Shown piece by piece: positions 2,979 through 43,062 of a stretch of DNA of 51,073 bases. The notes below the pieces were generated by a model that was not told the origin of the DNA, did no database searches, and worked only from the letters and a program-made list of their open reading frames with translations. Position 1 is the stretch's first letter, and each line of letters begins with the position of its first letter. The position numbers and the translations under genes are program-made. This DNA is from a candidate division WOR-1 bacterium RIFOXYB2_FULL_42_35 (GTDB taxonomy: Bacteria > Margulisbacteria > WOR-1 > O2-12-FULL-45-9): positions 1 through 51,073 of the forward strand of contig MEUC01000023.1 of assembly GCA_001771545.1 (NCBI GenBank), in the 5' to 3' direction.

Positions 2979-3045
2979 AAATAATGATAAAAGAAGGAAA
3001 AAATCGACGCTATTTTATAAAAACTTACGGCTGCCAAATGAACAT
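2967..3045 (+). repeat. miaB 5' end (copy 2 of direct repeat, in the intact gene)
   Basis: This is the second copy of the exact 79-base repeat, here continuing into the full-length miaB reading frame. The two copies bracket the HTH/nucleotidyltransferase pair. Confidence 0.92.
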
Positions 3046-4333
3046 CGTTGATAGCGAAAAGCTAGCAGCTATCTTTGAAGCAGCTGGTTATCAACCAGCA
3101 AAAAGTCGTAAAGAGGCTGACTTCCTTCTGGTCAATACCTGCGTCGTTCGCCAAGGTGCCGAAGATCGCGCAGTCGGCTATGCCTTTACTGCCAAAGGTT
3201 TGCGAGAACATAAGCCTAATCTCAAAATCGGCCTCTGCGGTTGTATTGTCACCGAACCAGGTCGCGATATCAAAAAACAATTCCCGCATATCGATGTTTT
3301 TGTGCCGCCACATAGTCCGGAAGTACTGGCGGACTTTCTTAAATTAGAAAACCCCTCTCCCTCTGGGAGAGGGGGGGTGTGCTCTTCCGTTGGACGGGGT
3401 GAGGGCATAACGAAGTACATCACCATCATGCACGGTTGCGACAACTACTGTTCCTACTGCGTGGTTCCATACGTGCGGGGGAGAGAACATAGTCGTCCAA
3501 TTGCTGACGTATTAGAGGACGTCCGGCAGTCCGGCAGTCCGGCAGTCAAAGAAATCTTTCTCCTTGGACAGAACGTCAATTCCTATAAGTATGGACTTGC
3601 TAAACTTTTGAAAGAAATAGAAATTCTCATTACTCATTACTCATTACCCATTACTCGGATCCGCTTCATGACCAATCATCCCAAAGATATGTCCGACGAA
3701 ATCATTCAAGCAGTAGCCGACTTGCCCCGTGTTTGCGAATTCTTTCATCTACCAATCCAGCATGGTTCAGATCGCATTCTTAAGCTAATGAATCGTGGTT
3801 ACACTGTTGATTATTATAGAAAATTGGTCGAAAAAATCCGTGCCAAAGTTCCTGGTGCCGCTATTACTGGTGATATTATTGTCGGTTTTCCTGGGGAGAC
3901 TGATGAGGACTTCCGCCTCACACTACGTATAGTAGAGCAAATAGGCTTTGATGCCTGTAATACCCTGATGTATTCCCAACGGCCAGGAACCGCTGCTTCT
4001 AAACTCGAAGATGATGTCCCCCAAAAGGTTAAAAAAGAACGACTCCATCAGCTAATGAAACTAGTTGATTCTGTCTGTATCAAGAATAATAAAAAACTAG
4101 TTGGCACTGTTCAAGAAGTCCTAGTTGATAATTCTTCACTTTCTCACCCTCTCTCTCTTTCTGAGAGAGAGGGGGCAGGGGGAGTGAGTTCTTATACCGG
4201 CCGCACCCGCACCAACAAAATCGTTAAGTTTCCTTCTGAAAGGAAGGACTTGCTCGGACATACTGTCAGTGTTAAAATAACTTCAGCGCTAAGTTGGCTA
4301 TTAAAAGGAGAACTTGTTAATGAAGAACACTGA
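2984..4333 (+). CDS. miaB: tRNA-2-methylthio-N6-dimethylallyladenosine synthase MiaB
   Basis: A radical-SAM methylthiotransferase that adds the 2-methylthio group to i6A37 of tRNAs. The N-terminal UPF0004 domain supplies cluster ligands Cys17, Cys53 and Cys87. The radical-SAM ligands are Cys152, Cys156 and Cys159 (CDNYCSYC). The C-terminal TRAM region binds tRNA. Family members differ in the last domain, but YGCQMN, LLGQNVNSY and YSQRPGT fit MiaB. The gene is remarkable for four in-frame repeat intrusions, at about residues 123-142, 180-188, 215-224 and 387-402, yet the reading frame stays open and all cluster cysteines survive. It overlaps prs by 14 bases. Its first 20 codons are duplicated upstream. 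Confidence 0.95.
   Translation: MIKEGKNRRYFIKTYGCQMNIVDSEKLAAIFEAAGYQPAKSRKEADFLLVNTCVVRQGAEDRAVGYAFTAKGLREHKPNLKIGLCGCIVTEPGRDIKKQFPHIDVFVPPHSPEVLADFLKLENPSPSGRGGVCSSVGRGEGITKYITIMHGCDNYCSYCVVPYVRGREHSRPIADVLEDVRQSGSPAVKEIFLLGQNVNSYKYGLAKLLKEIEILITHYSLPITRIRFMTNHPKDMSDEIIQAVADLPRVCEFFHLPIQHGSDRILKLMNRGYTVDYYRKLVEKIRAKVPGAAITGDIIVGFPGETDEDFRLTLRIVEQIGFDACNTLMYSQRPGTAASKLEDDVPQKVKKERLHQLMKLVDSVCIKNNKKLVGTVQEVLVDNSSLSHPLSLSEREGAGGVSSYTGRTRTNKIVKFPSERKDLLGHTVSVKITSALSWLLKGELVNEEH
3352..3408 (+). repeat. Palindromic CCCTCTCCC/GGGAGAGGG element inside miaB
   Basis: A perfect dyad CCCTCTCCC-TCT-GGGAGAGGG is followed by a GC-rich tail ending GGGGTGAGGG. It is translated in frame between the N-terminal and radical-SAM domains. 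Elements of this type are familiar from many bacterial genomes as short interspersed palindromes (recollection, not checked). Confidence 0.75.
3521..3547 (+). repeat. Octamer microsatellite (GTCCGGCA)3 inside miaB
   Basis: Three exact tandem copies of GTCCGGCA plus GTC, read in frame. The same octamer in reverse complement (GACTGCCG) begins a degenerate octamer array at 41030. Confidence 0.85.
3627..3654 (+). repeat. Heptamer array TCATTAC inside miaB
   Basis: Four tandem heptamers (TCATTAC three times, then CCATTAC) encode a THYSLP-like peptide in a loop after LLGQNVNSY. The same heptamer array interrupts homoserine dehydrogenase at 6664. Short tandemly repeated heptamers of this kind are known from filamentous cyanobacteria (recollection). 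Confidence 0.85.
4143..4188 (+). repeat. Second palindromic element inside miaB
   Basis: CTCAC (4143) and GTGAG (4184-4188) enclose a long dyad of alternating CT and GA, CCTCTCTCTC/GAGAGAGAGG. It is read in frame within the C-terminal TRAM region and is related in design to the element at 3352. Confidence 0.75.
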
Positions 4334-5264
4334 TCTACGGATCTTTTCCGGTACTTCCCATCCTCAATTAGGCGAAGAAATTTCTAAACACCTCGGTATT
4401 AATTCGGGTAAAATTAAAATCTCTCGTTTTGCCGGTGGTGAAATCTATGCCAGAATTCTTGAAAATATCCGTGGAAGAGATTGTGTTGTTTTGCAATCCT
4501 GCTCCGATAACGTCAACGATGAGCTAATGGAGCTTTTCATAATTATCGATGCCATGAAAAGGGCTTCGGCTAAAACAATCACAGTGGTCATGCCTCACTT
4601 CGGTTATGCTCGGCAAGATCGCAAAGCCGCCTCTCGCGAACCTATTTCTGCTAGGTTGTTAGCAAACCTAATCGAAACTGCTGGGGCTGATCGAGTTGTG
4701 ACTATGGATCTACACTCTGATCAAATCCAGGGTTTTTTCAATATCCCTATGGATACTTTAACAGCTATGCCGCTCTTTACGAATTATTTAATTAAGAAAA
4801 AACTCAAAGACATGGTTGTTGTTGCCCCTGATACTGGTCGGGCTAAAGTTGCTAAAAAACTGGCCGATCGTATTGGTGCTAGACTAGCTATTTTACATAA
4901 AGTCCGGGCAGAGCATCACAAATCGGCAGTTACCCATTTGGTTGGTAGTGTTAAAGAGAAAACGGTCATTATTACTGATGACATGATTGATACTGCCGGC
5001 ACAATTACTGCCGGTGTGGAGGCTTTACGTAAAAAAGGCTGCAACAAAGATATTTATGTTGTGGCTACTCATGGTTTGTTGTCAGGTCCTGCCGTTGAGC
5101 GGATGAGCGGGGTTGGGTTTGCTGAAGTTGTGGTGACTGATTCTGTTCCTGTTCCTAAAGAAAAACAATTTAAGGGTTTAAAGATCCTTTCTTCAGCCGA
5201 GCTTTTGGGTGAAGCTATTCGTCGTAACTTTGAACACCAATCAATCAGCTCGTTATTTGACTAG
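4320..5264 (+). CDS. prs: Ribose-phosphate pyrophosphokinase (PRPP synthetase)
   Basis: Makes 5-phosphoribosyl 1-diphosphate from ribose 5-phosphate and ATP for nucleotide, His and Trp synthesis. It is 314 residues, the usual length. Motifs are FSGTSHP near the N-terminus, the catalytic flexible loop FGYARQDRK, DLHSDQIQGFF, and the PRPP loop DDMIDTAGT. ATG 4320 is chosen because AAAAGGAG lies at 4303-4310; a TTG six bases earlier is less likely. It overlaps the end of miaB by 14 bases, suggesting translational coupling. Confidence 0.96.
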   Translation: MKNTDLRIFSGTSHPQLGEEISKHLGINSGKIKISRFAGGEIYARILENIRGRDCVVLQSCSDNVNDELMELFIIIDAMKRASAKTITVVMPHFGYARQDRKAASREPISARLLANLIETAGADRVVTMDLHSDQIQGFFNIPMDTLTAMPLFTNYLIKKKLKDMVVVAPDTGRAKVAKKLADRIGARLAILHKVRAEHHKSAVTHLVGSVKEKTVIITDDMIDTAGTITAGVEALRKKGCNKDIYVVATHGLLSGPAVERMSGVGFAEVVVTDSVPVPKEKQFKGLKILSSAELLGEAIRRNFEHQSISSLFD

Positions 5265-5269
5265 GGAAA

Positions 5270-5301
5270 GGGTTCAAGGTTTCTAGGGTCCTAGGTTTCA
5301 A
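5270..5301 (+). repeat. Four tandem degenerate octamers, left flank of four-helix-bundle gene
   Basis: GGGTTCAA, GGTTTCTA, GGGTCCTA and GGTTTCAA lie in exact 8-base register. They are the inverted counterpart of the array at 5677-5708. Confidence 0.85.
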
Positions 5302-5314
5302 GTGAGGGGAATAA

Positions 5315-5680
5315 GTGCAGTTAAGGACTTTCAAAGATCTAAAGGTTTGGCAGAAATCGTATTTGCTTGTTCTTGAAATATATAAGGTCTCTAAGGTTTT
5401 TCCTAAAGAAGAAAGATTTGGGCTTACTTCTCAGATTAGACGAGCTGCAGTATCAATTCCCTCTAATATTGCAGAAGGATATGCCAGAAGCTCTTTAAAG
5501 CAATACATAAATTTTCTTTTTATTGCTTATGCTAGCGGGGCTGAACTTGAGACACAATTAATGTTGGCAAAAGATTTGGACTATTTTACAGAGAATAAGT
5601 TTGAAGATATAATTGGGAAATATTATGAAGTTGAAAGAATGTTAATGGCTCTGATCAGGTCATTAGAGAAAAAGACTTGA
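5315..5680 (+). CDS. Four-helix-bundle protein (S23/IVP family)
   Basis: A helical protein of 121 residues with the family pattern: FKDLKVWQKS at the start, FPKEERFGLTSQIRRAAVSIPSNIAEGYAR in the middle, and a final helix pair. Relatives are encoded in intervening sequences of 23S rRNA and as scattered single genes, and some act as accessory proteins of diversity-generating retroelements. No reverse transcriptase lies nearby. Start is GTG 5315 with GAGGGGA just upstream. The gene sits between prs and hom and is framed by four octamers on each side in opposite orientation, the right array overlapping its stop codon. Together they look like a discrete insertable unit. Molecular role is unknown. 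Confidence 0.88.
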   Translation: MQLRTFKDLKVWQKSYLLVLEIYKVSKVFPKEERFGLTSQIRRAAVSIPSNIAEGYARSSLKQYINFLFIAYASGAELETQLMLAKDLDYFTENKFEDIIGKYYEVERMLMALIRSLEKKT

Positions 5681-5708
5681 AACCTTGATCCCTTGGTTCC
5701 TTGAAACC
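5677..5708 (+). repeat. Four tandem degenerate octamers, right flank of four-helix-bundle gene
   Basis: TTGAAACC, TTGATCCC, TTGGTTCC and TTGAAACC follow each other without gaps. The outer units are exact reverse complements of GGTTTCAA in the left array. The first unit contains the stop codon of the gene. Confidence 0.85.
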
Positions 5709-5725
5709 TAAAAGAGAGGAATATA

Positions 5726-6976
5726 ATGAGTAGAAAAATTACTATCGGCATCATCGGTCTCGGAAACATTGGCTCAGCCTTAGCTGGGGTGTTGTCTACT
5801 AATCATCAGGTCATTCTACGTAACTCCGGTGTTGATATTCGAGTCAAGAAGGTTTGCGACATTAAGAAACGCAAAACTCCTTTCTCTTTCACCTCAAATC
5901 CGTATGATATTATCAATGATCCTGAGATAGATGTGGTAGTCGAATGTATCGGTGGCGTTAACCCCGCCCTCAAGTTAGTTCTAGCTGCCTTATATAATAG
6001 TAAGCATGTTGTCACCCCCAATAAAGAACTTGTGGCCAAGCATATGAAGCAATTGCAAAAAGTTGCTGGTGAAAACAAAGTTAGCCTTATGTTTGAGGCT
6101 TCAGTTGGTGGTGGTATTCCGATAATTCAGCCGATCAAAGAATGTTTGCCGGCCAATAACATCACCGAGATCTATGGCATAGTTAATGGCACGACTAATT
6201 ATATTCTTAGTCAAATGACTGAAGCCGGGAAAGAGTTTTCCGATGCACTTAAAGAGGCTCAGGCCAAGGGTTATGCTGAGCCAAACCCAAGTGCTGATAT
6301 CAATGGCAATGATGCTGCTTATAAAGCGGCAATTTTAGCTTCAGTGGCTTTTCAAATTGAAGTTAATATGAAAGATGTCTATTTTGAGGGGATAACTAAG
6401 GTGGCTCAAGAAGATATTCAATATGCGGCTGACATTGGTTACCTAATTAAGCTTCTAGCAATAACTAAAAAGGTTGGCAAAGAGGTCGAAATTCGTGTTC
6501 ATCCAACTTTAGTTCCCAAATGGCATCCGCTAGCCGCTGTTTCCGATAACTACAATGCGATTTATGTTAAAGGGACCCCAATGGGTGAGTTGATGTTCTA
6601 CGGTCAAGGGGCAGGGGGTGGACCAACCGCGTCAGCTTTAGTGGCGGACCTAATTTCAATTGCTCATTGCTCATTACCCATTACTCATTACTCATTACTT
6701 AAGAGTAAGATCCGCAACATCTCCCAAGTCCAAAGCCGTTATTATATCCGCTTACAGGCGCCGGACCGTTATGGTGTCTTGGCTGGCATCTCCAAAGCCT
6801 TTGCGAAGAAGAAAGTCAGTATTGCTGCTGTAGTGCAAAAAGAGATGGTTGGTAACGTTGCTACTATTGTAATTATGGTTCACACTGTGGCAGAGAGAAA
6901 CCTTAAGGCTGCACTAGCAGAAGTTAAGAAGCTTTCAGTTGTTCGTAAAGTTTGTAATGTGATTAGGATTGTATAA
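5726..6976 (+). CDS. hom: Homoserine dehydrogenase
   Basis: Reduces aspartate semialdehyde to homoserine with NAD(P)H on the route to Thr and Met. The N-terminal Rossmann motif is GIIGLGNIGSALAG. The catalytic domain includes TPNKELVAKH, GIVNGTTNYIL and the substrate region DINGNDAAYKAAIL. A C-terminal ACT domain (about residues 340-416, DRYGVLAGIS) allows amino-acid feedback. A heptamer repeat array is translated in frame at about residues 313-325, exactly in the linker between catalytic and ACT domains. ATG 5726 follows AGAGAGGA. The downstream gene has its own promoter. Confidence 0.95.
   Translation: MSRKITIGIIGLGNIGSALAGVLSTNHQVILRNSGVDIRVKKVCDIKKRKTPFSFTSNPYDIINDPEIDVVVECIGGVNPALKLVLAALYNSKHVVTPNKELVAKHMKQLQKVAGENKVSLMFEASVGGGIPIIQPIKECLPANNITEIYGIVNGTTNYILSQMTEAGKEFSDALKEAQAKGYAEPNPSADINGNDAAYKAAILASVAFQIEVNMKDVYFEGITKVAQEDIQYAADIGYLIKLLAITKKVGKEVEIRVHPTLVPKWHPLAAVSDNYNAIYVKGTPMGELMFYGQGAGGGPTASALVADLISIAHCSLPITHYSLLKSKIRNISQVQSRYYIRLQAPDRYGVLAGISKAFAKKKVSIAAVVQKEMVGNVATIVIMVHTVAERNLKAALAEVKKLSVVRKVCNVIRIV
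6664..6698 (+). repeat. Heptamer array TCATTAC inside hom
   Basis: Five tandem heptamers (TCATTGC, TCATTAC, CCATTAC, TCATTAC, TCATTAC) are read in frame. They are the same family as the array in miaB at 3627. Confidence 0.88.
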
Positions 6977-42689: not shown

Positions 42690-43062
42690 GTCGGGTGTAT
42701 ATCCCTCGCCTTTAGGCGAAGACTTTAGTATGCTGTGAAGCATGAAAAATTACCGAACAGGGACGCATACGATTCACGACATAAAAATGCACTTTGTTTG
42801 GATCACGAAATACAGGAAAGTAATTCTGCGGGGAGGGGTGGCGTTGAGGTTTAGAGGCCTGATTCGGCAGATAAGTTTGGGCCTGGACGTAGAGATAGTT
42901 AGGGGTCATGTGGGGAAGGATCATGTTCATCTGTTTGTGTCATTGCCGACGGATATATCGGCAGGCAAAGATATGCAGAAGATAAAGGGAACGACGGCAA
43001 GGAAGTTGATGATTGAGTTCAGCGAGTTAAGGGAATGTTGCGAAATAGGGCTTTACAATACG
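42690..43062 (+). mobile_element. IS200/IS605-like insertion fragment
   Basis: A hairpin TCGCC-TTTA-GGCGA lies near the left end at about 42707-42720, as in the subterminal hairpins of IS200/IS605 elements. A truncated Y1 transposase follows. The 3' end and its hairpin are missing; the sequence passes directly into the leader of the first RRM gene. The exact ends are uncertain. Confidence 0.65.

Follow-up and report, generated by a model that had tools for sequence, protein, structure and literature searches.

The S23 unit, a stretch of about 430-570 nt in which a gene of the PF05635 family lies between inverted arrays of degenerate 7-8-nt words, is on balance probably a small mobile DNA whose movement would be guided by its S23 protein. 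Sequence comparison among loci indicates that the unit is mobile and that its word type is tied to the protein: copies occupy unrelated sites, empty versions of filled sites exist, arms occur without the gene, and the dialect of the words follows the protein.

The S23 unit between prs and hom

The window, that is, the whole stretch of 51,073 nt analyzed here from the candidate division WOR-1 bacterium RIFOXYB2_FULL_42_35 (contig MEUC01000023.1), carries such a unit at positions 5265..5711 (+ strand), in the gap between prs (4314..5264, +) and hom (5726..6976, +), two open reading frames whose names are based on the original prediction and on the sequence context. The prs gene, with full-length homologues 72-81% identical in relatives, ends in a TAG stop codon that borders the unit on the left, and hom, which directly follows prs in most relatives, has its ribosome-binding site just beyond the right edge. 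These borders, drawn from the arms and from junctions of relatives that mostly lack the unit, are approximate and the exact ends putative. The 5' arm (5270..5301, +) consists of the four octamers GGGTTCAA (5270-5277), GGTTTCTA (5278-5285), GGGTCCTA (5286-5293) and GGTTTCAA (5294-5301), and the 3' arm (5677..5708, +) of the four inverted octamers TTGAAACC (5677-5684), TTGATCCC (5685-5692), TTGGTTCC (5693-5700) and again TTGAAACC (5701-5708), the first of them overlapping the TGA stop codon of the S23 gene (5678-5680). Both direct reading of the letters and an inverted-repeat finder, which returned arms of 35 nt with 77% complementarity (5269-5303 and 5675-5709), confirmed the frame of four octamers, one gene and four inverted octamers exactly as it had been predicted.

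The framed gene (5315..5680, +; GTG start, 121 aa) encodes an S23/IVP four-helix-bundle protein that matches PF05635 (23S_rRNA_IVP) over its full length (E=1.1e-40; 138.5 bits, cut-off 33.8) and TIGR02436 (E=1.4e-38); the proposed kinship with the intervening sequences (IVS) of 23S rRNA is supported. Avd-type models matched weakly (PF22296 and NF033474; Avd model at 32.7 against a cut-off of 80 bits). Of the solved structures, XCC0516 (PDB 2GSC, E=4e-23), a homopentamer of four-helix bundles (PMC4990558), is the nearest. Seven PF05635 genes are present in the genome of the window (1.79 Mb, 51 contigs).

A Pfam scan detected no transposase in the unit, whose sole gene is that of PF05635, and a defence library gave no match to it. 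Across the whole window, Rfam at gathering scores returned one tRNA only, with no rRNA and no group I or II intron. A stable single-strand DNA fold of the whole unit was considered and discarded, as it scored no better than shuffled sequences (z=-0.28). A single octamer such as AAGGTTTC is not enriched in the window, with 4 occurrences against 3.3 expected; what stands out is that octamers form arrays, that the arrays mirror each other and that they recur around homologues. Elsewhere in the window lie a large serine recombinase gene (286-2007; Resolvase, Recombinase and zinc-ribbon domains) and an apparently truncated match to a Y1 (IS200-type) transposase (42772-43035; 88 of 121 model positions).

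Inverted flanks of S23 genes

For each gene, the 250-nt upstream flank was compared with the reverse-complemented 250-nt downstream flank and the best local match scored, in a first set of 94 S23 genes from the genome of the window and 19 relatives (strict cut-off 15.3) and in a second set of 96 from Bacteroidota, Desulfobacterota, CPR, Planctomycetota, others and viral contigs (cut-off 13). An inverted match between own flanks was found in 66 of the 94 genes (70%), with a median score of 17 compared to 8.5 for swapped S23 flanks and 9.0 for other genes, and in 76 of the 96 (79%), compared to 5.3% of 701 other genes and 3.4% of swapped S23 pairs. When the other-gene controls, which are simple open reading frame calls, were purged of S23 paralogues, 29 of 691 (4%) were framed (p=4e-62). 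Among the set-1 relatives no PIN gene was framed by inverted repeats (0/28). Y1 transposase genes, used as a positive control, were framed in 16 of 25 cases. The locus of the window scores 15.0, which is below the strict cut-off of its own set and above the value of 13 that 3-5% of controls reach.

Most of the seven S23 loci in the genome of the window have short-period repeats on both sides, usually inverted, and the word differs from locus to locus (TTTCGGG, ATATCAGA and GATCAAAA among them); the exceptions are L004, with a hairpin upstream only, and L005, whose flanks match in direct orientation. The octamer is not a fixed terminal repeat, as had been supposed, and represents one dialect among many 7-8-nt words. 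The expected association of octamer-type arrays with both sides of family members was recovered for most S23 genes; on the other hand, about 20-30% of them have no detectable inverted pair, and arrays also occur without the gene. The tRNA genes that adjoin S23 genes at L023, L036 and L076 have GTTAGTTGT-type arrays on their own flanks.

Arms and word dialects

An ungapped inverted match was present at 160 of 195 S23 loci, with a median arm length of 33 nt and a distance to the domain of about 35 nt on each side; the period was 7, 8 or 14 in 110 of 122 periodic arms, and the 5' arm was purine-rich in 126 of 152 units. Units have a median size of 479 nt (10th-90th percentile, 429-568 nt). Arms match better in register than after shuffling of words within arms (82 loci, p=1e-8), with individual significance at 0.05 in about a quarter of the loci; as the two arms correspond in order, they are related beyond a common consensus.

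In S23 locus pairs without shared neighbouring genes, with kin loci counted as separate observations, the proportion of similar arrays rose with protein identity from about 2% (<50%) to 14% (55-60%), 27% (60-70%) and 59% (70-80%), and similarity in the same orientation exceeded that in the opposite orientation throughout that range. Cross-phylum pairs with at least 55% identity also showed array similarity above that of relabelled arrays (5/2000 permutations). The GGNNTCRA words of the window-type S23 recur in Desulfobacterota/Proteobacteria MAGs, a second S23 type with the word GNNNCAAA is found in Flavobacterium, KSB1, Syntrophaceae and a deltaproteobacterial MAG, and a third with AGATTTGAG in Mucilaginibacter and a Bacteroidales MAG. 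These comparisons indicate that the word dialect goes with the S23 protein subfamily, even across phyla.

Empty and filled sites

Empty and filled versions of one gap were found at three sites of nostocalean plasmids (A, B and C), the best empty copies being about 92-95% identical to the filled plasmid where aligned, and at a fourth, nrdB/nrdA (site D), at 85.5% identity. At site B the empty copy reads AGGTTCTA followed directly by GGTTATGC, and the filled one AGGTTCTA followed by AATCAGGAGTCAG, the S23 gene, CTTCTGGATTCTA and then GTTATGC. The filled copy of site A lacks about 41 nt of the empty copies, and the same site carries L358 and L359, two elements that have inverted word arms but no S23 gene. 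In one strain (L364, 735-960) an S23-less element of the same words splits the S23 gene of site B; given an interior like that of L359 that matches many nostocalean plasmids, this insert may be chimeric and include a different repeat. No clear target-site duplication was seen at sites A-D, and TTCTA at site B is a possible one.

The 420-nt unit of site B was located at three unrelated sites, namely site B itself, Aulosira (L372) and Trichormus/Scytonema (L373 and L374, which share their context), and an internally deleted copy of 170 nt occupies a fourth site in Nostoc C052 (L375). Homology among the multi-site copies of the 420-nt unit ends at the arm ends. S23 units were also observed on cyanobacterial plasmids between cas6 and cas4 and between cas10 and cmr3 (L350, L354).

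Of the 24 loci compared at the prs-hom junction, most have hom starting within about 30 nt of the prs stop codon, so that junctions of relatives are mostly empty; a few carry other genes in the gap, and three (L053, L055, L059) an octamer array without S23. The prs stop codon is TAG or TGA in all four array-bearing junctions, that of the window included, and TAA in 18 of 19 array-free ones, and one more junction has a run of TTGA tetramers and a TGA stop; since the stop codon differs with the presence of the array, the insertion border would lie at the stop codon. The prs-hom and nrd loci are weaker empty/filled pairs than plasmid sites A-C. Taken with the Pfam scan of the gene, the empty/filled pairs and the multi-site unit largely support the original prediction of a mobile cassette without its own transposase.

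Arrays without S23 and other framed genes

Word arrays are common at places away from S23 genes. In the window, in-frame arrays of 7 nt (ATTACTC/CTCATTA), encoding ITHYSLPITHYSL-like peptides, were noticed in hom (6659-6699) and in gene 2984-4333 (3626-3656), and are probably solo copies of the same array class. Several nostocalean S23 units have heptamer arms, such as AGGGAGT, AGGGAAC and CTAAAAG, which resemble the cyanobacterial heptamer repeats called STRR. The function of STRR is described as unknown (PMC2670836), and Rehm et al. reported heptamers in Xanthomonas and Nostoc, generally without association to mobile elements, with 70-75 of those in each Xanthomonas genome lying in close convergent pairs (PMC4692102). 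We infer that S23 would explain both the STRR and the xanthomonad heptamer arrays.

In the set-1 relatives, 14 of 15 GxxExxY (PF13366) and 22 of 24 DUF559 (PF04480) genes lie inside inverted repeats of their own type (L269-L288, L318-L347), which suggests that small genes framed in this way form a broader group. Gene 2984-4333 of the window also has the peptide inserts NPSPSGRGG and SLSLSEREGAGG, which suggest insertions of the CCCTCTCCC/GGGAGAGGG palindrome found on both sides of DUF559 genes in relatives.

Proposed mechanism and alternative explanations

To our knowledge, S23 proteins have no catalytic motif or activity, and their role in movement is therefore one that we infer. The protein, a ring of five bundles in the solved homologue, would recognize the word dialect of its own unit, probably with the unit in a folded or single-stranded form, and would recruit host enzymes for cutting, copying and joining it. 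Its targets would be the unit that encodes it, in cis, and arrays of this dialect that lack the gene, in trans, a scheme like that proposed for RAYT proteins and REPINs; arm length would shift through gain and loss of words.

Another explanation, possible though unlikely, places the activity in the word arrays, short tandem repeats that would lengthen into hairpins by slippage and fold-back copying, with S23 as a passenger in the loop that moves by recombination between arrays. It would account for the many arrays without a nearby S23 gene, for the solo arrays in the prs-hom gap of three relatives and for the arrays around some tRNA genes, but not for the strong preference for S23 over other small genes (PIN genes being never framed), for a dialect that tracks the protein subfamily across phyla, or for the recurrence, at unrelated sites, of one unit whose ends are defined. 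Improbable, in turn, is an RNA route in which a stem-loop RNA bound by S23 is excised like an IVS and recopied by a reverse transcriptase acting in trans. In its favour, 23S rRNA IVS are built alike and RNase III excises them (PMC4990558), and S23 has a relative in the retroelement protein Avd; however, reverse transcriptase was undetected in G000 (the genome of the window, seven S23 genes), G014 (15) and G015 (12), which are 85-93% complete, with no PF00078 match in G000 (93% complete). The sense orientation of S23 in codirectional gene pairs within operons (117:16), which would agree with passage through RNA, had to be rejected as proof of it, because ordinary genes show an equal bias (582:81).

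That S23 units are non-autonomous cargo of IS200/RAYT-type Y1 transposases is highly improbable. Their organisation resembles that of RAYT-REPIN (PMC3116915), and 14 of 20 genomes have Y1 genes, which are similarly framed, but no Y1 match was obtained in G014 (90% complete) or G013 (three S23 genes), both incomplete genomes, and in G002 eight Y1 matches were obtained but no S23 gene. It is thus unlikely that a resident reverse transcriptase or Y1 transposase is required, as both were undetected in G014 and G002 has Y1 without S23. We give the smallest chance to a reading without a mobile unit, in which an ordinary gene has arms that serve as local stems for regulation or RNA processing: tight intergenic placement and proximity of the arms to start and stop codons agree with such stems, yet the clean empty sites and the multi-site unit whose homology ends at its arms contradict them. 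Regulation on top of mobility is possible.

Discussion

The mobile S23 unit proposed here shares with the 23S rRNA IVS of Coxiella and Leptospira the protein family, terminal inverted repeats and a similar size (428-444 nt in Coxiella), and mobility was proposed for these IVS long ago (PMC4990558). It differs from them in that the unit of the window lies between the protein genes prs and hom, in arms made of short words of many dialects, and in the documented empty sites and multi-site copies; a simple motif search found no S23 gene inside 23S rRNA among the compared loci. The 23S rRNA IVS are probably members of the S23-unit class. As in RAYT-REPIN systems (PMC3116915), the gene is flanked by its own repeat type, gene-less copies occur solo or paired, and the repeat type follows the protein lineage, whereas PF05635 stands in place of the Y1 tyrosine transposase and tandem 7-8-nt words in place of a 20-40-nt palindrome. 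STRR and the xanthomonad GGGAATC heptamers (PMC2670836, PMC4692102) are likewise short tandem intergenic words, sometimes in close inverted pairs, but the reports name no link to S23 and generally no association with mobile elements, and the unit of the window differs from STRR in its 8-nt words and its lineage. Measured against insertion sequences and MITEs, the unit of the window carries no known transposase. The Avd proteins of diversity-generating retroelements belong to a related four-helix-bundle family, as the weak profile matches reflect; in contrast to such retroelements, no reverse transcriptase was detected in the genome of the window.

The open literature, with preprints and most subscription journals outside the scope of the search, yielded no earlier description of S23, DUF559 or GxxExxY genes tied to such repeats, and judged against it the S23 unit apparently represents a small mobile unit of a new class, RAYT-REPIN-like but S23-based. 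The chances are about even that S23 proteins define a new class of mobile DNA that spans phyla and has left the 7-8-nt arrays (STRR and kin) of many bacteria as its footprints, with GxxExxY and DUF559 as sister systems. The proposal gives one testable origin for the purpose of S23/IVP proteins, the spread of 23S rRNA IVS and the heptamer and octamer arrays of cyanobacteria, xanthomonads and others. If true, a mobile element without a recognized recombinase would exist in many phyla, and word dialects would predict which protein reads which word.
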